Assembly: GCF_026004115.1 (NCBI RefSeq)
Contig: NZ_BPIM01000001.1
Location: 1,178,001-1,242,000 of the forward strand
Origin: Meiothermus sp.
Lineage (GTDB): Bacteria; Deinococcota; Deinococci; Deinococcales; Thermaceae
Direction of reading: 5' to 3'
DNA: 64,000 nucleotides
A program made the translations under genes and the position numbers. The notes under the pieces were generated by a model. That model did not search any database. It had not been told where the DNA came from and worked only from the letters and a program-made list of their open reading frames with translations. This document shows positions 19,903-34,026 of the stretch, piece by piece (positions within the stretch are counted from its first letter, which is position 1; the number at the start of each line of letters is the position of its first letter).

Positions 19903-21253
19903 AGCTGACCACTTCAACCCGTGTGTGCGTGGAATACCGAAGCCGCTGCGCGTTCAAATAGCGTTATAGCAGTTCATCCCCGCGTGTGTGGGGAATACAC
20001 TCGGGGTCGGTCGCTTTCTCGCCTACGGCTCGGTTCATCCCCGCGTGTGTGGGGAATACACCAGGTACGACCCCAGGGCCGCCAAGCCCCCCGGTTCATC
20101 CCCGCGTGTGTGGGGAATACGGCATCCAGGGACGAGAAATCACCGACGTTATCGGTTCATCCCCGCGTGTGTGGGGAATACCGGCAGGTCGTCCCGGTAG
20201 ACGATGAGCCGCTCGGTTCATCCCCGCGTGTGTGGGGAATACGTCGCAATTTGCTCCCTGACCCCGACCGGATCACGGTTCATCCCCGCGTGTGTGGGGA
20301 ATACGGCTGGAGGATTTCTTGCTCAGGAGGTGGTAGCGGTTCATCCCCGCGTGTGTGGGGAATACGAACAGCCAGGAGGTTTTCGGCTGGAATGGTCGGT
20401 TCATCCCCGCGTGTGTGGGGAATACGGGGAGACGAACACTGCCCCCACCGGCAGGGGCGGTTCATCCCCGCGTGTGTGGGGAATACGAGATGGGCCAGGA
20501 AAGGATTGCGCGGGTCCCCTGGTTCATCCCCGCGTGTGTGGGGAATACTCCCTATAGTTCTGCCGCTGGCGGCGTTCGCACGGTTCATCCCCGCGTGTGT
20601 GGGGAATACTAGTTTCGTGGATATTCCTGGCTTTGCAATAACGGTTCATCCCCGCGTGTGTGGGGAATACGCCGCCCCCAGCTTCCCATTGCTGGCCAAA
20701 AAAGGTTCATCCCCGCGTGTGTGGGGAATACGCCAGCAATGTAGCCCCCAGGGTCAGGGGAGCCGGTTCATCCCCGCGTGTGTGGGGAATACTTGAGCTA
20801 TAGCCAATATCATTAGCGCGTCGTCGGTTCATCCCCGCGTGTGTGGGGAATACGGCAGGCCGATGACGTCCACCTTCAAACCAGGCGGTTCATCCCCGCG
20901 TGTGTGGGGAATACGAGGTGCTCCCTCACCTGGTCGGCGGTGAGCTCCGGTTCATCCCCGCGTGTGTGGGGAATACGCTGCTTACGAAGCGTTACAGCAG
21001 GAATATGCGGTTCATCCCCGCGTGTGTGGGGAATACGCCGCGTTCAGCCCATCTCAGTTTGTGCAGGGCGGTTCATCCCCGCGTGTGTGGGGAATACGTT
21101 GTCAAGCCATACCTCGACGTAGCTGCCGTCGGTTCATCCCCGCGTGTGTGGGGAATACATTTGGTACGCCGCGAGGACCTCGAGGCTTTGCGGTTCATCC
21201 CCGCGTGTGTGGGGAATACGATGGGCGGCACCAACAAGCGTACTTTCCCCCGC

Positions 21254-21678
21254 GGTTCATCCCCGCGTGTGTGGGGAATACTTCCAATCCCCCCTGCTTG
21301 AAGGGGGGCTTTCGGTTCATCCCCGCGTGTGTGGGGAATACGACGGTACATTGCACCCCTCCCCAGGGCACCTCGGTTCATCCCCGCGTGTGTGGGGAAT
21401 ACGGGCCTATAGGCCAGCCTAGGGGCTATAGGGGCGGTTCATCCCCGCGTGTGTGGGGAATACTTCCAATCCCCCCTGCTTGAAGGGGGGCTTTCGGTTC
21501 ATCCCCGCGTGTGTGGGGAATACGACGGTACATTGCACCCCTCCCCAGGGCACCTCGGTTCATCCCCGCGTGTGTGGGGAATACGGGCCTATAGGCCAGC
21601 CTAGGGGCTATAGGGGCGGTTCATCCCCGCGTGTGTGGGGAATACTTCCAATCCCCCCTGCTTGAAGGGGGGCTTTCG
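21254..21678. repeat. Duplicated three-spacer block in the array
   Basis: The 182-bp block 21254-21435 (three repeat-spacer units) recurs at 21436-21617, and its first spacer appears a third time at 21646-21677. The first spacer contains the palindrome CCCCCCTGCTTGAAGGGGGG. Confidence 0.92.
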
Positions 21679-21738
21679 GTTCATCCCCGCGTGTGTGGGG
21701 AATACCCATTCAGGCGTAACCAGCACCGGTTCGCCGTC

Positions 21739-22106
21739 GGTTCATCCCCGCGTGTGTGGGGAATACGCCGCCGTGCCGCCGTGCCGTGATGCCGATAACG
21801 GTTCATCCCCGCGTGTGTGGGGAATACGCAGGAACAGGATGATGTACGGCAACAGGGCCTCGGTTCATCCCCGCGTGTGTGGGGAATACGTAGTCGTGCT
21901 CGTTCTCTTGAATGCCCAATACGGTTCATCCCCGCGTGTGTGGGGAATACGTGGAGCGGGCCTTCTTCCGCACCCGGCCCTTCGGTTCATCCCCGCGTGT
22001 GTGGGGAATACGCCGCCGTGCCGCCGTGCCGTGATGCCGATAACGGTTCATCCCCGCGTGTGTGGGGAATACGCAGGAACAGGATGATGTACGGCAACAG
22101 GGCCTC
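21739..22106. repeat. Duplicated two-spacer block in the array
   Basis: Two adjacent units at 21739-21861 recur at 21984-22106, separated by two unrelated spacers; this indicates recombination between repeats. Confidence 0.92.
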
Positions 22107-23848
22107 GGTTCATCCCCGCGTGTGTGGGGAATACTACGGCACGTTACGCAGCGGCACGGAATCCTTCGGTTCATCCCCGCGTGTGTGGGGAATACGGCTG
22201 GATTATCCAGACCATCTACGGCGTCTACGGTTCATCCCCGCGTGTGTGGGGAATACGCCACCTGACCCTATTAGGGTGTCTGTCGTTTCGGTTCATCCCC
22301 GCGTGTGTGGGGAATACGCCGGGAGGGGCTAGAGCGGCTGGCAGACCGCGGTTCATCCCCGCGTGTGTGGGGAATACTGAAACATTACACGACCTACGAA
22401 CGAAAACAACGGTTCATCCCCGCGTGTGTGGGGAATACTACCTGGTCGCCGGGCTGTGGCGGGTTTTCGCGCGGTTCATCCCCGCGTGTGTGGGGAATAC
22501 TCCAGACAGCAGTCTGGCCATTGCGCTTGCCGCGGTTCATCCCCGCGTGTGTGGGGAATACGTCATATCTGCGTGCGATATTTGTATTGCGGCGGTTCAT
22601 CCCCGCGTGTGTGGGGAATACTATACCTGATGATGACCGCTAGCACTTTCCCTCCGGTTCATCCCCGCGTGTGTGGGGAATACCTTGAATTGATTCTGGA
22701 TAAGACAATAAATAACGGTTCATCCCCGCGTGTGTGGGGAATACCCTGGGCGGGATATCGCCCGGGTTGTAGTGGGCGGTTCATCCCCGCGTGTGTGGGG
22801 AATACACTAGACGCCGCAGTGCAGCGCAACTCCGTAGCGGTTCATCCCCGCGTGTGTGGGGAATACTTCAACGCTCAGCGCGTTGGCCCTCAATATTGCG
22901 GTTCATCCCCGCGTGTGTGGGGAATACTTTGGCGCTTGCGCGCCACGCTCTCGAGCATATCGGTTCATCCCCGCGTGTGTGGGGAATACTAAAACGTTTG
23001 CTCGTGGAATTTCCCGTCGCGCGGTTCATCCCCGCGTGTGTGGGGAATACGCTCCGGCGGTAATCCCTCTAGGATACTCTTCCGGTTCATCCCCGCGTGT
23101 GTGGGGAATACATTGTGCAGAAATGCTTGGGGCGGTCGCCCCGCGGTTCATCCCCGCGTGTGTGGGGAATACTTCACGACCCCGCCGAGGGCTACGGCGG
23201 ACAGCGGTTCATCCCCGCGTGTGTGGGGAATACGGCACGGCAACACAGCAACACGGCACGGCTACGGTTCATCCCCGCGTGTGTGGGGAATACGACAACC
23301 CTCTGGACGCCTCGCTGGTCGTCGCCGGTTCATCCCCGCGTGTGTGGGGAATACGATGTGTGGTGCGTGTACGACACCCAGTCATCCGGTTCATCCCCGC
23401 GTGTGTGGGGAATACGCCTGCGGATACGGTGCCCCAGAAATCCACTTCGGTTCATCCCCGCGTGTGTGGGGAATACGCTCATCGCAGCGCCCCAGCCTGC
23501 TTTGAGCGCGGTTCATCCCCGCGTGTGTGGGGAATACTACTACGTCGTCCCAGTAGCGTTGATCCACCCACGGTTCATCCCCGCGTGTGTGGGGAATACC
23601 TGGGCATGGAATACCCAGTCCCGTCCATGCACGGTTCATCCCCGCGTGTGTGGGGAATACCCGCTCGGAAAGCCCGAACGAACGCTGGAGGGCGGTTCAT
23701 CCCCGCGTGTGTGGGGAATACATAATGCCGTACCCCATCATCGAGAAGTATTTCGGTTCATCCCCGCGTGTGTGGGGAATACGTGCGTTACCGCAACGAC
23801 GTGAATCGGCTGGCCGGTTCATCCCCGCGTGTGTGGGGAATACACTTG

Positions 23849-23863: not shown

Positions 23864-24256
23864 TCAGCCGCTTACCCCGTCTGAAGTGTCGAAATCCCGA
23901 GCTGATGGGTTGGGATTTTCTTTTTCAAGGTTCTCGGTCGCCTTAGACTTTTTCCGTTTGGCATGCATGCGCTGCCATTCGGCGTTTTGCACAGCGACCA
24001 GCGTGATGCCATCAAAGTCTACCAGGGTGCGGGTGGCGTCGCCATGGGTTCGGATCGTAAAACCTTGCTCGTTGCTGGTACGGTACATCAGGCAACAACG
24101 CCCTACGGTCTTTTTCTCTTTGCACTTCTCCCACAGCAGATCCCGCACCAATGCCGACATGCTGCCCACAAAAACACCGCTGCTCACTTCCAGCATCCAG
24201 CGCGATAGCTCGCCGCGCAGACGCTTGGGTACATTTTCCAGCACAATCACGACCAT
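23864..24256 (-). CDS. cas2: CRISPR-associated endoribonuclease Cas2 (type I-E)
   Basis: 130 residues. Cas2e forms the Cas1-Cas2 integrase that inserts new spacers. The core MVVIVLENVPKRLRGELSRW through GVFVGSMSALVRDLLWE to DFDGITLVAVQN matches the CT1978-type Cas2, normally about 90-100 aa. After residue 90 there is an unusual charged tail of about 40 residues (KRKKSKATENLEKENPNPS and on) ending only 20 bp from the first CRISPR repeat, so the leader lies inside the 3' coding end. It follows cas1 after 3 nt. Confidence 0.93.
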   Translation of the reverse strand: MVVIVLENVPKRLRGELSRWMLEVSSGVFVGSMSALVRDLLWEKCKEKKTVGRCCLMYRTSNEQGFTIRTHGDATRTLVDFDGITLVAVQNAEWQRMHAKRKKSKATENLEKENPNPSARDFDTSDGVSG

Positions 24257-24259
24257 AGT

Positions 24260-25207
24260 TTAGTTGGGGTCGTCTGGCTCGAGTTCGCCATAGGCCACCC
24301 CACCAGGAACCGTACCGTCCACATCCCATAGCTCACCGGGGGCCGAGGCATCTTCGGCATAGGGATCGAGGATTTCCAGGGCATCGAACAAAGAGTGTAA
24401 ATCTGAGACGATGCGCTCCAACAGCTTGACCTCCCGGAGCTGGTCGCGCAGGGCCTGGCGCACCCGCCTCTCTACGCCGAACTCCGATTCGGCTACTACC
24501 TTAAAAGCAGTTGGGATCAGGGTTTCGGCCTTGTAGAGGTCGGCCACATCGTAGACGAAGGAAAGCTGCTTGCCGGTGTGGATGAACCCGAGGGCCGGGC
24601 TGTACCCCGCCGAGACGATGGCGGCGTGGGCAATCCCGTACAGGCAGGCGGCCCCCGCCGAGAGGGCGCGGTTGATGGGGTCGGCGGCAGCCCAGTTCCC
24701 CCGGTTGTAGTTGCGGCCCTTCCACTCCACCCCGGTCTCGCGGCTCCAGCGAGCGTAGCTATCACGCATCCGTACCCCCTCTCGGCCCCGAATTTGTTCC
24801 AGGGTAAGGTCGGGCGGCAGTCCTTCGGGAAAGCGCATCCGGTACATGCGCTTGACCACTTCCAGGTGCGCCTCTGGGTCGGCCCAGGCTTGCGCTTGGC
24901 GCATCAGGTTGGCACTGGAACGGGTTTCACCCATGCCACTGGCATAAAAGCGCACCATCTCCTCACCCACCCAGAACACCGAACAGCCGTTGTTGGCAAG
25001 CTGACGAATGGCGGCATGGGTGATGGAGGTGCCGGGGCCCAGCAGCAGCACCCCCAGCGCGGCAGCCGGTATGGCCACCACCCCTTCTTGGCTGTAGTAG
25101 GCTACGGCCTGGTCTTGCTGCTCGAGGCGGCCATGCTCGAGGTAGATGTACGAAAGCCCGTCGCGGAACTTGGGAAGTTCTTGTAGATTGCGGGTTTCGT
25201 ATTTCAT
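24260..25207 (-). CDS. cas1: CRISPR-associated endonuclease/integrase Cas1 (type I-E)
   Basis: 315 residues, Cas1e length. N-terminal beta domain (FRDGLSYIYLEHGRLEQQDQ, then GVVAIPAAALGVLLLGPGT) and a helical catalytic domain with INRALSAGAACLYGIAHAAI, SPALGFIHTGKQLSFVYD (catalytic His and Asp) and ADLYKAETLIPTAF. It catalyses staggered nicking and integration of protospacers at the leader-proximal repeat. It lies 16 nt after cas6e with a GAGGGGA ribosome binding site, and is followed directly by cas2. Confidence 0.95.
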   Translation of the reverse strand: MKYETRNLQELPKFRDGLSYIYLEHGRLEQQDQAVAYYSQEGVVAIPAAALGVLLLGPGTSITHAAIRQLANNGCSVFWVGEEMVRFYASGMGETRSSANLMRQAQAWADPEAHLEVVKRMYRMRFPEGLPPDLTLEQIRGREGVRMRDSYARWSRETGVEWKGRNYNRGNWAAADPINRALSAGAACLYGIAHAAIVSAGYSPALGFIHTGKQLSFVYDVADLYKAETLIPTAFKVVAESEFGVERRVRQALRDQLREVKLLERIVSDLHSLFDALEILDPYAEDASAPGELWDVDGTVPGGVAYGELEPDDPN

Positions 25208-25223
25208 GTCTTCCCCTCATCTC

Positions 25224-25868
25224 CTAGCGAGAAACCTTTGCGATGGAGAGCAGGCCAAACCCTAGGGCCTTGGCGTGACCGAGGCCGGTAGCAAGCGTGC
25301 GCTTGAACACCTCGAGGTCGGCGATCTTTAGGTAGCCCTCGTACAGCACCGACTGCACCACAATGGGCGGGCCACCCGAGTGCTTGACCATCTTCACGCG
25401 CTCGCTCTGGGCCACCATCGCGCCCAAGACGGCAAAGCCGCCCTTCTCGCCCTGCCGGGAGAGCCACTCGAGTTGCTCCTCGACCCCCTTAAGACCGTGG
25501 CGCTTGCCCTGCTTGGTGACGGTGGGGTTGGCCTTGAGTCGGAAGCGCAGGGTTTGGGCGGGTTGGAGGTGCTCGAGGAGTAGGGGCTTATACTCGGGCA
25601 AGCTTTGAAAGTAGCCAGGAAACCGCTCATTGAGTTTGTCCCAGTTAGGTCGTCCTGCGCTCTGAACCAGCACAATCGGGGTTTTACCCGCTTCCAAGCG
25701 CCAGAGAAACGGCTCGACGGTTCTCCCACGCTCTTCGCTCTCGCCCTCGGCGGGTCGCTCAGCCTTACGGAAGGCCCAGCACAGGGTGGCGTGGAGCTGG
25801 TAGGGGTTGGCGAGGTCGGTGCGGGCTTGCTTGGAGCGGGGATCAAGCTGGAGTCGGCTCAGGTACAC
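25224..25868 (-). CDS. cas6e: CRISPR pre-crRNA endonuclease Cas6e (CasE)
   Basis: 214 residues from the GTG at 25868 (read VYLSRLQLDP), preceded by GGAGGTGG; the frame overlaps the cas5 end by 26 bp. The C-terminal GLGHAKALGFGLLSIAK is the glycine-rich loop of the family; PYQLHATLCWAF near the N-terminus contains the likely catalytic His. It cuts pre-crRNA at the base of the repeat hairpin, leaving an 8-nt 5' handle, and stays bound to the crRNA 3' end in Cascade. Confidence 0.93.
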   Translation of the reverse strand: MYLSRLQLDPRSKQARTDLANPYQLHATLCWAFRKAERPAEGESEERGRTVEPFLWRLEAGKTPIVLVQSAGRPNWDKLNERFPGYFQSLPEYKPLLLEHLQPAQTLRFRLKANPTVTKQGKRHGLKGVEEQLEWLSRQGEKGGFAVLGAMVAQSERVKMVKHSGGPPIVVQSVLYEGYLKIADLEVFKRTLATGLGHAKALGFGLLSIAKVSR

Positions 25869-26538
25869 GCTCCACCTCCACAAAATCCGAAACCACGAAG
25901 CGGGCCCCAAAGCGGCGCTCAGCAAATGAGCCGAGTGGCTGATCCATGCGCAGTGAGCCTTCGCTCGAGTCCCGATTTTCGAGCATCACGGGCAGTCTGG
26001 CCGACTCGAGGTCTTTTCCTTCCTCGTCCTTGGGCCAATCACGCCCGAGGAATTCGTACTTCAAAGCTTCTCGCAAGGGCTCGTCCCGCAAGCCATCGGG
26101 CAGGAATACGCCAGGGCTTGGCACATAGCCTTTTCTTCCGAGGAAAAGCGGCCAAACCGGGTTTTTGAGCGCCTGGTGAGCGCGCTTGAGCAGCCTCCAA
26201 TCCTTTCCTTCCAACCCCACGAGGAAGACGGCATCGGCCAAGTAGTAGCGCCTCGAGATGGTGGTGGGGTGCACCTTGGACTCATCGGCAGCGATCACGT
26301 TCTGGGCGGTCTGGTAGTCGTAGCGCAGCACGCCCGGCTGATCCACCCGTACACCCATAAGTAAATCCGCCAGTTCCAGTACAGGCTCGCGCTTCTCACG
26401 GTCTATGCCCATCGCGGCGCACAGCAGACCGATCACCCCGCTTTTGGAGGGCGAAAGATCGGTGTCCCGCTCGTCGAAGCGGCTCTTGGTGCCCCAGGAC
26501 TGCATGGGGCCTGCCAGGCGTAGCAGTAGGGTGGGCAT
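25843..26538 (-). CDS. cas5e: Cascade subunit Cas5e (CasD)
   Basis: 231 residues. The typical N-terminus MPTLLLRLAGPMQSWGTKSR and DTDLSPSKSGVIGLL match Cas5e, which caps the 5' handle of the crRNA and contacts Cas8e. The central TISRRYYLADAVFLVGLEG is also typical. It begins 1 nt after the cas7 stop and overlaps cas6e, so translation of the operon is coupled. Confidence 0.94.
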   Translation of the reverse strand: MPTLLLRLAGPMQSWGTKSRFDERDTDLSPSKSGVIGLLCAAMGIDREKREPVLELADLLMGVRVDQPGVLRYDYQTAQNVIAADESKVHPTTISRRYYLADAVFLVGLEGKDWRLLKRAHQALKNPVWPLFLGRKGYVPSPGVFLPDGLRDEPLREALKYEFLGRDWPKDEEGKDLESARLPVMLENRDSSEGSLRMDQPLGSFAERRFGARFVVSDFVEVERVPEPTPA

Positions 26539-26539
26539 G

Positions 26540-27702
<1,163 letters not shown>

Positions 27703-27706
<4 letters not shown>

Positions 27707-28302
27707 TCTTCCTCTCCTCCTTCGGTTTCTTTTGCCACAGTGCGGTAAAAAGCCCTGGCCCACTTCTGCTGCACCGGCCTGCGCTCATGGTTCCAGGCCA
27801 AGAGGTCGCGCAAGAGTTCCGACCAGTAGATGGGGATGCCTTCCTCGCTCTTGAGCAGCCGTACCATCTGGCGTATCCGGTACGGGAGCTGTTCCTCGTC
27901 GGCATCGAGCAAGGCGATGAAGCGCTGCTCGATGCTTTTGGACTGGCCGCGCTCGAGGTAAAGCTGGGCGATGGCGTGGCCCAGCGTGCGGCGGTAGCCT
28001 TTACTCACGTCACTCTCTTCGCTCTGGCTCACTTCAGGTTCTTCCTCGGGATTTTTGCGGAACTGCTCCAGCTCCGATGAAGACACCGTATTAGCCCACA
28101 ACCCGGCCACCAGGTAATAGACCATCCGCTCCCAGCGGTCTTCCCGCTCGTCCTGAATGCGGCCCAAGAACCCCTCGACCACAGGGATTACTTCCTGGCC
28201 TGGATCGCCCAGGGCGCGGCGCATCCGCGCCAGGTCGGCGGGTTCGCTGCGACGGCGTAAGTGGAGTACAAAGGCTTGTTCCTTAGTTATTTCCTTTTGC
28301 AC
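27703..28302 (-). CDS. cas11: Cascade small subunit Cas11e (CasB/Cse2)
   Basis: 199 residues, all-helical, with the family pattern [20 protein letters not shown] near the N-terminus and [20 protein letters not shown] in the middle. Two copies stabilise the target DNA strands in the R-loop. It overlaps the cas8e 3' end by 20 bp and the cas7 start by 4 bp. Confidence 0.93.
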
Positions 28303-29830
28303 CTGCTACCTCCCTTCCGTAGATATGGGCCAGCAGGATACCTTCGCTCTTGTGAATGGCCCGCAACGCTCTGGCATCGTCCCCGGCGGCTAAAATTGTG
28401 AGCTTCCATGCCCGCAAGGCTTCCCGCCGGAGGATCTTTAGCCAGTCCTGCTCGAGCCGGGCTTGCTGCTCTTCGAAATCGGGGCCCAGCCGCACGATCC
28501 AGTCGGCGAAATGGCCCTCGAGCGCCGACCAGTAGGCAACTTGGTGGGGAAAGCTCTGCACCAGCTTGTTCACGTCGTCCTTGTGCGGCTGCCGATCTCC
28601 CAGGGTCAGAAGCTCTTTAGCCAGGACTCGAGCCGCCCCATTCAAAGCCCCTCCCATTTCTTCGGCTCGCTCCAGGTTCTGCTCCACAAAGCGCCAGATG
28701 TCCTGATCGCTCAGGATGGCCTCGGGCAGACGGTAGACCTCACCCCGCCATAGCTCAATCTTGGCCTGGTCGTTGGCCTGGCCCGCGACCATTACCGGAA
28801 TGCCCCGTCCTTTAAACCGAGTACCCAGCGCCCTGTAGACGTTGCGGGCGTGATCCACCACGCCTAAGCTCCGTTCAGAGCCGGGTTTAGGCAGCAACGA
28901 GGCGAAGTCCCGCCACAGCGCCCGGCCCTCGCGAAAGCCGAGCGGATACTGCTTGGAGGGGTCTTTGGGGTCGGGGCGGAAGGCCACCATGGGGTCGGGG
29001 CGTACCGCGGCTTCCTCGTAGCGAATCCCCGAGGCGTAGGCGATCCAGCGCACCACGGTCTGGCCGTTTTCTGTTTCGGGCTCGAGGCGCACCGCGCGCG
29101 AGAGCCAGGTGTAGCGGTGGACGATGCCCTTGGGGGTGGCCCTGGCGGCCTCGCAGTTTTGCAGGTTGGACACCCGCAGCGGCTCCTGCTCCCAGGTGGC
29201 AAAATCGCGCTCGTACTCGCTTTTGGGATAGCTGACGAGGTTCAAGCATAGCGTCTCGTGGAGGTTCTCGCCCAGCATGAGGGCCAATGCTGCCGTTGCC
29301 ACGGGCGCGGTAGCGGTGTGGCAAAGCACGCTCTTGCCCGCCGAAAGGGCAAAGGTCTGGTTGGCCACCAGCAATCGGGCAGCCTCGGCGGGGTACAGGG
29401 GGCGGGGCCTCGAGGTGACGGTGTGGTCGAACAAAACCTTGTTGTTGTCGGAGTTGAGCTCGGGGGCCAGCACCGTCCAGGAGCGGCAGGAGCGCTCGAG
29501 GGTGAAGTCGGGCACCTGGAATAAGGGCTTCTTAGGGTGGAACAGGTCGAAACGGTCGTGGTACCTGTCCAGATAAGCCCGGATCTTCCCTGCGTCGAAG
29601 TTGTTCTCGAACCATTCTGCCGCCTCGTAGGAATCCACTGGGCCTTGCAGCGCCCGGTGCAAAATAGCCTCGAGTAAGCGATGTAGCGCTACGGTCACGA
29701 GCGGACTGGGATCTTCGATACGCTCGAACCGACGGGCTTCGAGCAGGGTTTGCTCGAGGCTCACCTCCTTTAGCTGGTTTCCCTCCCTAACGGGAATCCA
29801 GGGCTGGGTTATTAGGTTGAACGTGGGCAA
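28283..29830 (-). CDS. cas8e: Cascade large subunit Cas8e (CasA/Cse1)
   Basis: 515 residues. The N-terminus MPTFNLITQPWIPVREGNQL is diagnostic of Cse1. It recognises the PAM and recruits Cas3. The start is TTG at 29830 with a strong AGGGAGGTGAG ribosome binding site. The gene is the first large cistron of a promoter at about 30133-30161 that also covers a 58-aa ORF. KAKIELWRGEVYRLPEAILS and the C-terminal four-helix bundle (LEQDWLKILRREALRAW) are in the usual positions. Confidence 0.95.
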   Translation of the reverse strand: MPTFNLITQPWIPVREGNQLKEVSLEQTLLEARRFERIEDPSPLVTVALHRLLEAILHRALQGPVDSYEAAEWFENNFDAGKIRAYLDRYHDRFDLFHPKKPLFQVPDFTLERSCRSWTVLAPELNSDNNKVLFDHTVTSRPRPLYPAEAARLLVANQTFALSAGKSVLCHTATAPVATAALALMLGENLHETLCLNLVSYPKSEYERDFATWEQEPLRVSNLQNCEAARATPKGIVHRYTWLSRAVRLEPETENGQTVVRWIAYASGIRYEEAAVRPDPMVAFRPDPKDPSKQYPLGFREGRALWRDFASLLPKPGSERSLGVVDHARNVYRALGTRFKGRGIPVMVAGQANDQAKIELWRGEVYRLPEAILSDQDIWRFVEQNLERAEEMGGALNGAARVLAKELLTLGDRQPHKDDVNKLVQSFPHQVAYWSALEGHFADWIVRLGPDFEEQQARLEQDWLKILRREALRAWKLTILAAGDDARALRAIHKSEGILLAHIYGREVAGAKGNN

Positions 29831-29883: not shown

Positions 29884-30060
29884 TCACGAGGTATCGCAGT
29901 CCCACTCATCAAGGGAGCCATATTGCTCCTGCAGCCTGTGCTCGGCCAACCTCAGCTCGAGCTCGGCCCTGAATTTTTCGGTGTTGGAAACGTTTGCAGC
30001 ATGTGCTGCATCCATCACCAAATTTACAAGCTCGTCGTCTGCTAAAATGCCATAGAGCAC
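29884..30060 (-). CDS. 58-aa ORF between cas3 and cas8e
   Basis: GTG at 30060 is preceded at 8 nt by AGGAGG (30074-30069), giving 58 residues: VLYGILADDELVNLVMDAAH, then a charged helix with EKFRAELELRLAEHRLQEQ, ending in an acidic tail (DEWDCDTS). A longer frame upstream would run through the promoter and hairpin and is rejected. Codon use is less GC-rich than the surrounding cas genes. It shares the promoter of the cas8e operon and is the first product after a Cascade-targeted regulatory region. It could be a cas regulator, an anti-CRISPR-type modulator, or a small toxin of the CreT kind; no family is recognised. Confidence 0.6.
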   Translation of the reverse strand: MLYGILADDELVNLVMDAAHAANVSNTEKFRAELELRLAEHRLQEQYGSLDEWDCDTS

Positions 30061-30080
30061 GGAGCACACCTCCTGACTCA

Positions 30081-30123
30081 CCGAGGAACCTCTCTTTGCT
30101 TGGCGGCGGGCGAGGTTCCTCGG
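30081..30123 (-). promoter_or_regulatory. Perfect 12-bp stem-loop at the 5' end of the cas8e operon mRNA
   Basis: CCGAGGAACCTC (30123-30112) pairs with GAGGTTCCTCGG (30092-30081) around a 19-nt loop. The predicted transcript start (about 30126) lies 3 nt before it, and AGGAGG follows 6 nt after it, so it is a 5'-terminal leader structure that may stabilise the mRNA or gate translation. It could also stop plus-strand transcription, as TTTT follows on that strand. Confidence 0.6.
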
Positions 30124-30132
30124 TTTTAGGGC

Positions 30133-30161
30133 ATTAAAGCAGAAAATGGTTTGATTGTCAA
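30133..30161 (-). promoter_or_regulatory. Promoter of the 58-aa ORF-cas8e-cas2 operon
   Basis: TTGACA (30161-30156), 17-bp spacer, TTTAAT (30138-30133): one of the best sigma-A promoters in the window. Unlike most genes here, it drives a long structured leader. Confidence 0.8.
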
Positions 30162-30166
30162 TCTCC

Positions 30167-30189
30167 CTAACCCTCTGTACTACCAACTT
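30167..30189 (-). promoter_or_regulatory. Predicted Cascade target (PAM plus protospacer) on the cas8e promoter
   Basis: On the minus strand AAG (30189-30187) precedes TTGGTAGTACAGAGGGTTA (30186-30168), which matches the mini-CRISPR spacer at 17 of 19 positions (mismatches at 8 and 12). A normal 32-nt protospacer would extend to 30155 and cover the whole -35 hexamer. Confidence 0.75.
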
Positions 30190-30197
30190 ACGTTTTA

Positions 30198-30275
30198 GCA
30201 ATAAGCCCCACGAATGTGGGGATGTTGTAACCCTTTGTCCTACCAACGGTTCATCCCCGCTTGGGCGAGGAACGC
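30198..30275 (-). ncRNA. Mini-CRISPR / CreR-like Cas-regulating RNA
   Basis: The first pseudo-repeat (30275-30247) shares about 22 of 29 bases with the array repeat, including the 14 bases GCGGGGATGAACCG with the full 8-nt 5' handle. It folds as CCTCGC/GCGGGG around CCAA. A 20-nt spacer (30246-30227) follows, then a diverged second pseudo-repeat (about 30226-30198, 16 of 29) that keeps the hairpin CCCCAC-ATTC-GTGGGG needed for Cas6e. The spacer matches the promoter of the cas8e operon 60 bp away on the same strand, next to an AAG PAM. Known CreR/CreA RNAs of other CRISPR subtypes use such short, partly matching guides to repress without cleavage; this assignment is by analogy. Confidence 0.75.
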
Positions 30276-30280
30276 TATCT

Positions 30281-30286
30281 ATCATA
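30281..30286 (-). promoter_or_regulatory. -10 box of the mini-CRISPR, inside the cas3 3' end
   Basis: TATGAT ends 5 nt before the first pseudo-repeat, the same spacing as TAGAAT at the main array; TTGGGG lies 18 bp further upstream as a possible -35. Confidence 0.5.
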
Positions 30287-32999
30287 GCGCACTCCTATAA
30301 ACCACCCCAAGCTCGGGGTGAAGCTCGAGCTCGAGTTCCCCCAGCACGGCCCTTCCCCCCTCGAGCACCACCAGGTGGGCGTGGGCCAGCAGTGGGGTTT
30401 CGCTCCAGACCTTGGCGGCTAGGCCCTGGCTCTTGCGGTGGGCTTCAAGCGCGGCGAAGTCGTCGTTGATAAGCTCATGGCGGCTGAGCTTGACCGAGCG
30501 GGCAAACACACACTTAGCCTCGGCCAGCTCGAGCTTGGCGGCCAGGCTGACCGGTTGCTGCCCGCCTGCATCCAGGCAGAGCCTTCCCCCTACCTTGTGC
30601 AGCAATACCACCGTAACGCTGGGGCGACCCTTGCGGGTTTTGAGCAGGCTGGGGTCGTCGTCGGGGTTGGGGTCGTCGTCGGGGAGCTTGGGGGGGAGCT
30701 TGGGGAAGGTCGGGGGATCGAGCCAGTCGGTCTCACAGGGTTCACCAAACGGGGCGTAGGCTGCCTCGTCCTGGTCTCGCGCATTCCTTTGCTCCATGCG
30801 GGTCTGGGCCTGCTCGAGGGCCGTCTTCCACTCTTCTGAAAGCCCCTGGAGCGGCGGCTCGCTGTACACCTTCTGCACAAGAGGATCTATGTCGCCCGGG
30901 AGGTCAATGTGGGTGCGGCTCCGCAGCGCGAGCCAGCTTCGCAGCAGAACGTAGCGCTCGTAAATTCGTTCGGCAGAACCAAAATCCGGCACGCCCTCCT
31001 CCTCTAAGCCCGCTACCCACAGCACTGGCTTGGTGTGGGCGTGGCGCTCCTTGGGGTCACGCTCGTGACGGTGCAGCCGCCCGGCGCGTTGCAGCACCAG
31101 ATCCACCGGAGCCAAGTCGGTGAACATCACGTCGAAGTCGAGGTCGAGGGATTGCTCGACCACCTGGGTAGCGACCAGGATGGCTTTCTGAGGACGCTGG
31201 CCCTGTTTGCCAAACTTGGCGAGGACGGCCTTCTCGCGCTCTAAGCGCTCCTCGAGGGGGTAGCGGGCATGGAACAGGTGAACCTCTACCCCATCCGCCT
31301 TGCCCACCAACGCCTGGTACAAGTCCTGCGCCCGCTGCACGGCGTTGACGATGCAGGCTACGCAGCCGCCCGACCGGGCCTGCTCGAGCGCTTTCCCGGC
31401 GAGGGCCTCGAGGTCAAGCGGCAAGGCCCTCAGCACCAGCGTGGGCTGTTTCCTCGCCTCAAAGGTTTCCACGGCGGGTTTAGCGTCGCCCTTTACGACG
31501 CGGGTAATGCGCGGGTAGGGTTTGTCTTCCGCTTTGGGTATCTCACCTGCCCCGAACGCCTTGAGCAAAGCCTCCCGCTTGGCCTTGGGCAGCGTCGCGC
31601 TCATCAGCACGACCGATGAACCCAACGCCCAGAGCCAGCGCACCAGGGTCTCAATCAGGCCGCTGGTGTAGGTGTCGTAGGCATGCACCTCGTCCAGCAC
31701 CACCACCCGGTTGCCCAGCCCCCACAGCCGGACGAACTGGTGCTTGGTGGGCAGAATACTCAAGAGCGCCTGATCCACCGTCCCCACCGCATACTCCGAG
31801 AGCAGGCCGCGCTTGCGGTGGGAGAACCAGACCTGGGCCTTTACCCCTTCCTCTCCTCCTTCGGGTGTGTTGGGGCGCACGCGTATCTTCTGGTACGCCT
31901 CTACCAGCTCGCTGGCCCCGTGCAGGAGTTGCAGGTCGAGCCTGCGGGACTTTCCATAGCGGCCCAGGAACGCCTTGGCCCGCTCGAACATCAGGTTGCC
32001 GGTGGCCTGGGTGGGCAAAGCAATGTACATCCCCCGGTGCCCGTTGGCCGCTTGCAATCGCAAATGGGCATAGAGCGCGGCTTCGGTCTTGCCCTCACCC
32101 ATTGGGGCCTCGACCAGGAACAGGGCGGGGGTGTCGATCCCTTCCAATAACCGCTCGAGCACGGCTTGCAACGGGCGAGCCCTGAACGGCTGGTCGGGTT
32201 TGCCCAGGTAGGCAAACACCGCTTCCAGGGTTTGCGGCTCGGGCATCAGGGTTTCCCGCTTGAACCAGCCCACGCTATCGAGCTTTTGTGCGGCCCGCTT
32301 TTTAGCTTCCTGGTAATACTCGGTCAGGTCGTCCCCGAGCGGGTGGAAGTCGAGGCTGGAGCCGATCCAGTCGGCGAAGCTGGTCAGGCCCGCCAGGCGT
32401 TCGAAGGCCGCACCCTTGTAGATAGAGACCTTGGGGGCATTCCCTACCTCGAGCACCTCGAGTACCGCTTCGAACAGTTCCTGGCGTACCTCGTCCCAGA
32501 CCCCTTTGCCTTTTTCCCTGCTGGTCACATCTTTGAGGTCATTCTGTGTGGCCCGAAAACCATGGTGCGCGCCCACCGCAGCAGCGACGTTTTTGGCGGC
32601 CCTGCTTACCCAACCTCGCCCCTCGAGAAGTCCTGGCAGTACTTCCTCACTGATCACGCTGTGGGAAACGTCATTCGGTGGGAGGGTAGGGTCAACATTC
32701 CAGGTCAACCCTGCGGCCCGGACCCGCTCCTTACCCTCGAGCCACTTCTGCTGGAAGGCCGGGCTGGCCTTGCCGATGTCGTGCAACCCCGCCAGGGCGC
32801 AGATCCAGGCTTTGGCTTGCTGGGGCTCGAGATTCAGATCCCGGGCGTACAGCTCGAGGGTCTTTGGGGGCTCACGCTCGAGAATCGCCTCGGCGCTGGC
32901 CGCTACGTCAAGCAAATGAGCAATGAGCGGATGCCAGGAGCCGTCGTTCTTCTCCCTGTCACTTTTCGCCCATAGGGCTTTTGCCTTTTCCAAAAGCAT
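30282..32999 (-). CDS. cas3: CRISPR-associated helicase/nuclease Cas3 (HD + DEAD-like)
   Basis: 905 residues from the ATG at 32999 (MLLEKAKALWAKSD); the open frame further upstream overlaps the WYL gene and is not used. N-terminal HD nuclease: HPLIAHLLDVA and LAGLHDIGKASPAF. SF2 helicase motifs: APMGEGKTEAALYAHLRLQ (Walker A), VVVLDEVHAYD (motif II), LMSATLPKAKR (III), QRAGRLHRHERD (VI). It is recruited by Cascade to unwind and degrade target DNA. It begins 28 nt after the WYL regulator stop, so the two form one unit, and its last bases contain the promoter of the mini-CRISPR. Confidence 0.95.
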   Translation of the reverse strand: MLLEKAKALWAKSDREKNDGSWHPLIAHLLDVAASAEAILEREPPKTLELYARDLNLEPQQAKAWICALAGLHDIGKASPAFQQKWLEGKERVRAAGLTWNVDPTLPPNDVSHSVISEEVLPGLLEGRGWVSRAAKNVAAAVGAHHGFRATQNDLKDVTSREKGKGVWDEVRQELFEAVLEVLEVGNAPKVSIYKGAAFERLAGLTSFADWIGSSLDFHPLGDDLTEYYQEAKKRAAQKLDSVGWFKRETLMPEPQTLEAVFAYLGKPDQPFRARPLQAVLERLLEGIDTPALFLVEAPMGEGKTEAALYAHLRLQAANGHRGMYIALPTQATGNLMFERAKAFLGRYGKSRRLDLQLLHGASELVEAYQKIRVRPNTPEGGEEGVKAQVWFSHRKRGLLSEYAVGTVDQALLSILPTKHQFVRLWGLGNRVVVLDEVHAYDTYTSGLIETLVRWLWALGSSVVLMSATLPKAKREALLKAFGAGEIPKAEDKPYPRITRVVKGDAKPAVETFEARKQPTLVLRALPLDLEALAGKALEQARSGGCVACIVNAVQRAQDLYQALVGKADGVEVHLFHARYPLEERLEREKAVLAKFGKQGQRPQKAILVATQVVEQSLDLDFDVMFTDLAPVDLVLQRAGRLHRHERDPKERHAHTKPVLWVAGLEEEGVPDFGSAERIYERYVLLRSWLALRSRTHIDLPGDIDPLVQKVYSEPPLQGLSEEWKTALEQAQTRMEQRNARDQDEAAYAPFGEPCETDWLDPPTFPKLPPKLPDDDPNPDDDPSLLKTRKGRPSVTVVLLHKVGGRLCLDAGGQQPVSLAAKLELAEAKCVFARSVKLSRHELINDDFAALEAHRKSQGLAAKVWSETPLLAHAHLVVLEGGRAVLGELELELHPELGVVYRSAL

Positions 33000-33027: not shown

Positions 33028-34026
33028 TCATTTCCTGTCGCACATCGCCGCCACCTGCCGCGCTTCCTCGAGCCACCTTCTCCTGAGGCCCTCCGGCCCC
33101 AGCACCTCCACCCGCGCCCCCCAGCTCTGCACCCAGGAAAGCAGCTCGAGGGGAAAGTTGTGGTTATCGGTGCCCACGGTAATACAAACCTCGAGGCCCC
33201 CACCCGGAAGCCTCGAGGCAATATGCAGGTTGGGATAGCCGCCTTCCAGGATGCGGTAGGCGGCCTCGGGGCGGAAGCGCAGCCGGACTTCCACCGGCAC
33301 GCCGCCGCTGCTCCCGACCACCCCCCAGGCATTGGAGAGGTAGTGTCGGGGGTCAAAATCGTTGGGGATGGTGTAGGCCCCTGGTTCCCCTACCAGCCGC
33401 ACGCGGCGCATCCGGCTCAGCTTGTAGGTGCGCAGGGCCCGGCGGTTGCGTTCATAGCCGATGACGTACATGCCCAGGTTGGTGCGGGCAATCTCCAGAA
33501 AGTAGACCTCGAGCAGGTTCTGACCCGGCCTGCCTGGGCCGCCGGGCTTCAGGTAGTCGAACGCAATCGGCTGGCGTTTGAACCAGGCCTCGGCCAGCGT
33601 GGCCATGGCAAGCCCCTCGTCCTGGTGTTGCAGGGTGCGGTGCTCGAGGTCTTCGGTGCTTTTGAGGGCCAGCTCTTGGGCCGGCGAGGGCAGCCGCCGG
33701 GCCAGTTTCTTGAGGGCCGAAAGGTAGGTGGGCTCGTAGCCGGGGGTGTGGTGGTAGAGCATCCGCAAGGCGCTGTGGGTAACCAGGGCTTCCACCGGGC
33801 TCAGCTCCTGGCTTTGCAGCAACTGATACTGCGGCGAACGACCCTTTTTGGCCACCTCGATGGCTTGCAGATCCTCGAGCAGACGTAAAGCCGTCCGTTT
33901 ATCCACCCCCAGCGTTTTGGCCAGCTCCTGGGCCGTGTGGGGCCTGGTCGAAAGCAGGTCTCGAGCCTCCATCAAACGCAAAGACTTTTTGTGGTGGGCA
34001 CGCTCCCGGCGAGGTTCATCCCTCAT
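33028..34026 (-). CDS. HTH-WYL domain transcriptional regulator
   Basis: 332 residues. An N-terminal winged helix (LMEARDLLSTRPHTAQELAK, GVDKRTALRLLEDLQAI), then a WYL domain (QPIAFDYLKPGG, MYVIGYERNRRALRTYKLSR) and a C-terminal WCX segment (VPVEVRLRFRPEAAYRILE). WYL regulators often sit beside CRISPR-Cas and other defence loci and sense nucleic-acid ligands. GGAGG lies 4 nt before the ATG, and a direct repeat GGCCATATG spans the start. It is co-directional with cas3 and probably controls the locus. Confidence 0.88.
   Translation of the reverse strand: MRDEPRRERAHHKKSLRLMEARDLLSTRPHTAQELAKTLGVDKRTALRLLEDLQAIEVAKKGRSPQYQLLQSQELSPVEALVTHSALRMLYHHTPGYEPTYLSALKKLARRLPSPAQELALKSTEDLEHRTLQHQDEGLAMATLAEAWFKRQPIAFDYLKPGGPGRPGQNLLEVYFLEIARTNLGMYVIGYERNRRALRTYKLSRMRRVRLVGEPGAYTIPNDFDPRHYLSNAWGVVGSSGGVPVEVRLRFRPEAAYRILEGGYPNLHIASRLPGGGLEVCITVGTDNHNFPLELLSWVQSWGARVEVLGPEGLRRRWLEEARQVAAMCDRK

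Follow-up and report, generated by a model that had tools for sequence, protein, structure and literature searches.

In the gap between cas3 and cas8e of a Meiothermus-lineage type I-E locus, we identified a stand-alone mini-CRISPR whose guide matches a PAM-flanked site beside the promoter of the effector operon. We interpret this element as a CreR-type, Cascade-guided autorepressor of that operon, and assign this reading, in which repression is deduced from sequence, a probability of about 0.87. It rests on a crRNA handle, a guide, a PAM, a target ranking first in each of 11 loci, covariation between guide and target, a constrained promoter geometry, and a target that is also the best in the whole genome, and the complete Cascade and Cas6e genes at the locus count in its favor. 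A sequence-only reading of the same DNA had proposed such a regulator, and conservation and covariation now lend support to that proposal.

A repeat-spacer unit in the cas3-cas8e gap

The window, i.e., the whole 64,000-nt stretch of DNA analyzed (G000:C1:1178001-1242000), belongs to a 3.35 Mb genome and holds a full type I-E gene set, from cas3 to cas2, along with an array with an I-E-type repeat (Table 1). Genes are ordered on the minus strand as WYL regulator, cas3, mini-CRISPR and target, a 58-aa open reading frame (ORF), cas8e, cse2, cas7, cas5, cas6e, cas1, cas2, and array. The WYL/WCX regulator may exert a separate control of cas3. Internal duplications in the array at 21252-21615 and 21734-22134 (a 182-nt tandem block with 100% identity and a 156-nt block with 99%) leave several spacers present twice.

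Table 1. Features of the type I-E locus and of the mini-CRISPR, in window positions
Feature	Position	Strand	Basis or remark
WYL/WCX-domain regulator gene adjoining cas3	33028-34026	-	domain matches
cas3, HD and helicase domains	30282-32990 (start approximate)	-	domain matches
Putative mini-CRISPR promoter, TTGGGG-N18-TATGAT	30281-30310	-	-10 ends 5 nt ahead of pseudo-repeat
Degenerate repeat psi-R1, hairpin CCTCGC-CCAA-GCGGGG	30247-30275	-	comparison with array repeat
Handle ATGAACCG	30254-30247	-	also conserved in related loci
Guide, 20 nt, TTGGTAGGACAAAGGGTTAC	30227-30246	-	covaries with target
Second degenerate repeat psi-R2, hairpin CCCCAC-ATTC-GTGGGG (30221-30206), also terminator-like, without handle	30206-30226	-	hairpin search
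PAM AAG	30187-30189	-	directly 5' of target
Target, 5' part of protospacer, 17/19 identities with guide	30168-30186	-	guide-target alignment
Predicted promoter of 58-aa ORF and cas8e operon, TTGACA (30161-30156)-N17-TTTAAT (30138-30133)	30133-30161	-	hexamers, conserved spacing
133-codon open frame overlapping cas3 stop (ATGA), spanning the element; weak coding signal	29884-30285	-	pN/pS 0.63, N-terminal part
58-aa ORF, GTG start, first gene past targeted promoter	29884-30060	-	ORF list, pN/pS 0.28
cas8e (Cse1), first Cascade gene of putatively autorepressed operon	28283-29830	-	domain matches
cse2, cas7, cas5, cas6e, cas1, cas2	23864-28302	-	gene calls and domain matches
CRISPR array, about 65 repeats, spacers 31-33 nt	19918-23840 (ends approximate)	-	repeat analysis

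The element pairs psi-R1 with psi-R2 inside the cas locus and outside the array. Its parts are where the sequence-only reading had placed them: psi-R1 shares its final 14 nt, handle included, with the array repeat GTATTCCCCACACACGCGGGGATGAACCG and is followed by the 20-nt spacer and then by the psi-R2 hairpin, which we recovered in 11 of 11 element-bearing loci (see below). The -10 of the putative mini-CRISPR promoter (TATGAT or TAAGAT) occupies the same location in all five loci of the type that includes the window (type A, below). A search of the element against Rfam returned one spurious sub-threshold match only, and therefore no curated RNA family covers it.

The target lies 60 nt from the guide on the same strand, and both the 17 identities and the adjacent AAG of the earlier alignment were recovered, i.e., a limited, PAM-flanked complementarity to the locus' own cas promoter. 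One mismatch falls, as had been noted, on a flipped-out base (position 12), and the other on position 8, inside the seed. The promoter of the effector operon is called from its hexamers and from the conservation of their fixed spacing across five loci; a consensus promoter scan listed nothing at this site, because that scan requires an A at the second position of the -10. The protospacer had further been predicted to cover the -35 hexamer, which is true of a 32-nt protospacer, whereas the 20-nt spacer stops 5 nt short of it.

Among the 108 PAM sites found on both strands of a 700-nt region, the target ranked first, and none of 5000 shuffled guides equaled its match. In a pattern search of the whole genome, no other site came within one mismatch of the PAM-plus-guide pattern AAGTTGGTNGGACANAGGG. 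Two other sets of candidates were rejected: handle-like sites in cas3 (9-12 of 15 matches), for which the best targets mostly lacked a canonical PAM and had no adjoining promoter, and a few 9-10/10 matches elsewhere, which corresponded to array repeats or coding matches.

Distribution and guide-target pairing across Deinococcota

Across 39 cas8e upstream regions from Deinococcota, the element was detected in 11 and absent from 28, and is therefore dispensable. A family-wide DNA search recovered the same cas3-cas8e insert in G023 (97%), G016 (72%), and G004 (73%, on a contig that stops short of cas8e), while cas3 abuts cas8e at six other junctions from the genus and family. Elements were divided into a Meiothermus/Truepera type with the target on the strand of the guide (type A: G000, the genome of the window, with G023, G016, G004, and G042) and a Thermus type whose target sits on the other strand (type B: G019, G021, G035, G069, G037, and G099). 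The PAM was AAG in 10 of the 11 loci and ATG in one. An alignment of related loci had been set beforehand as a test able to refute the proposed regulator; it showed the match conserved in 10 further Deinococcota loci and on a Thermus thermophilus plasmid.

With all positions weighted equally, every one of the 11 targets ranked first among PAM sites, each at the cas8e-side promoter region. Our first target scan had skipped positions 6 and 12, with a possible bias towards mismatches there, and the equal-weight scan left the targets unchanged. For G021, G035, and G069, the 17-position score alone was not significant (p-value 0.16-0.37), and these targets were assigned on the 11-nt seed (p-value at most 0.002) and the common geometry.

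Every sixth base of a guide (6, 12, 18) is flipped out by Cascade. The 11 guide-target pairs matched 11, 11, 9, 11, 11, 2, 11, 8, 10, 11, 11, 1, 8, 8, 6, 6, 5, 1, 2, and 2 times at positions 1 to 20, and near chance beyond, with pairing ending at 11-19 nt. Mismatches thus affect position 6 in 9 loci, position 12 in 10, and position 18 in 10. Position 6 differed from the other positions of 1-11 across the 11 loci (Fisher test, 2e-8) and within type B only (5/6 vs. 1/60, 4e-6), both p-values being indicative only given the shared ancestry of the loci. G000, G023, and G016 carry a mismatch at seed position 8, which counts against the autorepressor reading, as do the open frame over the type A element (see below) and the 28 loci devoid of an element.

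Guides and targets also changed together, a covariation of spacer and promoter site that the sequence-only reading had proposed to look for. Compensated double changes distinguish G000 from G016 at five positions (3, 9, 10, 11, and 16) and from G004 at two (1 and 9), with one to four such changes among Thermus-type loci, and in all 11 loci a guide's own target was its best or joint-best fit. Together with the 6-nt mismatch pattern, this covariation indicates that the pairing is under selection. Promoter geometry was similarly constrained: the -35 begins exactly 25 nt past the first target base in 5/5 type A loci, and 2 nt from it in 5/6 type B loci, where the CTT of CTTGACA (CTTGAAA in G099) supplies the PAM AAG as its complement, with a different promoter-target arrangement in G037. 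That one promoter edge is occupied in two distinct ways speaks for selection on blocking of the promoter.

A pair of similar sites some 60 nt from each other near a promoter is also a common operator layout, and a WYL/WCX regulator gene adjoins cas3, so that a DNA-binding protein such as this regulator could use the guide and target as a direct-repeat operator. We consider this highly improbable, since one copy always follows the repeat handle and the other always follows a PAM, and the sites vary freely between species yet covary within a locus. Neither the reversed orientation in type B nor mismatches at every sixth base is predicted by a protein operator.

Nine loci have inferred spacers of 19-20 nt, and the other two of 31-32 nt. 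As 20 nt equals 32 nt minus two 6-nt Cas7 steps, this suggests a shorter Cascade. More divergent elements were seen in L087 (G037) and L075 (G099), one with the PAM ATG and no small ORF, and the other with a spacer of 31 nt; these elements may have arisen independently or represent a full-length ancestral state.

A Cas8e scan of genome contigs yielded three Meiothermus loci and one from a spirochaete; in the three Meiothermus loci (G009, G010, and G012), cas3 and cas8e abut and the element is absent. The T. thermophilus SNM7-6 plasmid pTthSNM7-6b carries the element, with handle, guide, PAM-flanked target, and promoter. Each of two plasmids of this strain carries a type I-E locus (L121 and L128), one with the element in a gap of about 430 nt ahead of casA, the other with a gap of just 50 nt. 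The scan for the element that had been applied to the Deinococcota cas8e loci found none in loci from Streptomyces, Ideonella, Acaryochloris, and a Deinococcus plasmid. In the Cas8e tree, G035, which has the element, and G065 (L074), which does not, are nearly identical; in the latter, element and small ORF are gone together and a tail of the ORF remains. T. thermophilus HB8 pTT27 (L116) likewise has, right behind cas3 and upstream of casA, a stretch resembling the tail of the small ORF. Both junctions look like deletion scars, and such a scar may explain why the element is absent from the well-studied HB8.

Reading frames across and beside the element

Type A loci have a frame of 133-141 codons that starts in an ATGA overlap with the cas3 stop, crosses the guide, the target, and the promoter, and enters the 58-aa ORF, an addition to what the sequence-only reading had described. 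This frame is free of stops in all five loci, whereas every other forward frame has 4-8 of them, and its pN/pS is 0.63 vs. 1.0-1.2 in the other frames; the chance of escaping stops is around 0.1 for each lineage taken alone. In G000, the encoded peptides are LVGQRV at the guide and LVVQRV at the target. The region could thus be mainly coding, with a cas3-coupled protein of 133-141 aa carrying the peptide LVxQRV/LVAHRV twice, guide-target identity reflecting this peptide repeat and mismatches being synonymous third-base changes. Positions 6, 12, and 18 are indeed third codon positions, and all type A mismatches at position 12 are transitions. Yet third positions 3, 9, and 15 match in 10 of 12 cases, while positions 6, 12, and 18 mismatch in 10 of 12 (Fisher test, 0.003), and type B shows the same mismatch pattern with no open frame across the element and the target on the other strand. 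A repeated peptide would also leave the handle, hairpins, and PAM unexplained, and we regard a mainly coding origin of the match as improbable.

Protein and guide functions may instead coexist. We tentatively consider, as a possibility we would not favor, that in type A a translated gene is overprinted with the guide and its target, the frame being protein-coding, regulatory crRNA, and DNA target at once. Translation of cas3 read-through mRNA and processing by Cas6e would then compete on one RNA, providing a second layer of control.

The 58-aa ORF is clearly coding and under purifying selection. Direct searches matched it to type A loci only, and domain and profile searches returned no family match above cut-off. 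In G019, G035, and G099, ORFs in the equivalent location have a similar C-terminal motif (GSLDE/GDLDQ). As it heads the targeted transcription unit, the ORF could encode a toxin released upon Cascade failure, in an addiction module similar to CreTA or CrePA. Its weak, sub-threshold similarity to TIGR02574 ("putative addiction module component", E 0.026) and its joint loss with the element in G065 would fit such a module. Nevertheless, no terminator-like site separates the ORF from cas8e, and close relatives devoid of both ORF and element still keep their cas genes. The ORF is also absent in G037, which has the element, and cut to 26 codons in G021, and therefore the mini-CRISPR does not need it. 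Overall, a toxin role for this ORF seems unlikely to us.

Proposed mechanism and relation to known systems

Under the autorepressor reading, the stand-alone mini-CRISPR would be transcribed into a short crRNA, which Cas6e would trim at the degenerate repeat, leaving the ATGAACCG handle, and which Cascade would load. The guide, through the PAM and about 17 paired positions, would bring Cascade to a site immediately 5' of the -35 hexamer in the promoter that serves the 58-aa ORF and cas8e-cse2-cas7-cas5-cas6e-cas1-cas2, where Cascade on DNA would block access of RNA polymerase. Pairing far short of 32 nt would not trigger Cas3 cutting. Plentiful Cascade would hence switch its own operon off by negative feedback, and Cascade occupied by many array crRNAs or inhibited by anti-CRISPRs would let the operon on again. 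Transcription and processing are predicted from promoter-like hexamers and hairpins, and the loading and binding of Cascade, the repression, and the signal for release are likewise predictions.

Previous work makes several of these steps plausible. Partial PAM-proximal pairing allows Cascade binding without cutting; in E. coli, a PAM-proximal match of at most 18 bp suffices for maximal affinity, and PAM-distal mismatches abolish interference (PMC5904413). Counting against the mechanism, off-target binding of E. coli Cascade with short pairing left transcription unaltered, and PAM-distal mismatches weakened repression (PMC5904413). In type I-B, spacers of 20-24 nt repress without priming, and with a 24-nt spacer repression stays while interference and priming are lost (PMC10989794). 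The same paper cites Cascades whose stoichiometry is altered when the spacer is short (PMC10989794).

These natural guide-target pairs provide evolutionary evidence for self-control guided by type I-E Cascade. They mismatch exactly at the bases that Cascade flips out, their pairing ends below cleavage length, and the element has been kept and re-aimed across a phylum, a pattern which fits the mechanism closely. T. thermophilus SNM7-6 offers a named test bed. Our literature search found no paper joining Meiothermus, CRISPR, and type I-E.

In type II-A systems, Cas9 represses itself via a long-form tracrRNA. As in the Deinococcota loci, a short natural guide steers the effector to its own promoter, but that system is of type II, relies on a single-guide form of the tracrRNA, and is built from unrelated parts (see also PMC11417352). 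CreTA and CrePA share with the Deinococcota element a degenerate psi-R1 and psi-R2, a crRNA-like guide, and a partial promoter match (PMC9458426, PMC12737573), which for I-B CreA is an 11-bp seed match (PMC10989794). They differ in being Cascade-repressed toxin modules, whereas the promoter targeted here leads to cas effector genes.

The closest counterpart is CreR. The sequence-only reading noted that CreR and CreA RNAs use partial guides, but was too narrow in placing them in other subtypes, as a review states that autorepression by CreR also occurs in type I-E (PMC13131331). CreR mini-CRISPRs are described for types I-B, I-E, and V-A (PMC13131331, PMC12948488, PMC12737573). CreR likewise is a short ectopic repeat-spacer unit in a cas locus, subtype I-E included, with a guide of limited complementarity to its own cas operon promoter. 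The Deinococcota elements are distinguished by spacers mostly of 19-20 nt, by the small ORF that follows, by the open frame over the type A (Meiothermus/Truepera) element, and by being predicted from sequence. The principle of CreR-type autorepression in type I-E is thus already published, and the Deinococcota element would be a further case of it.
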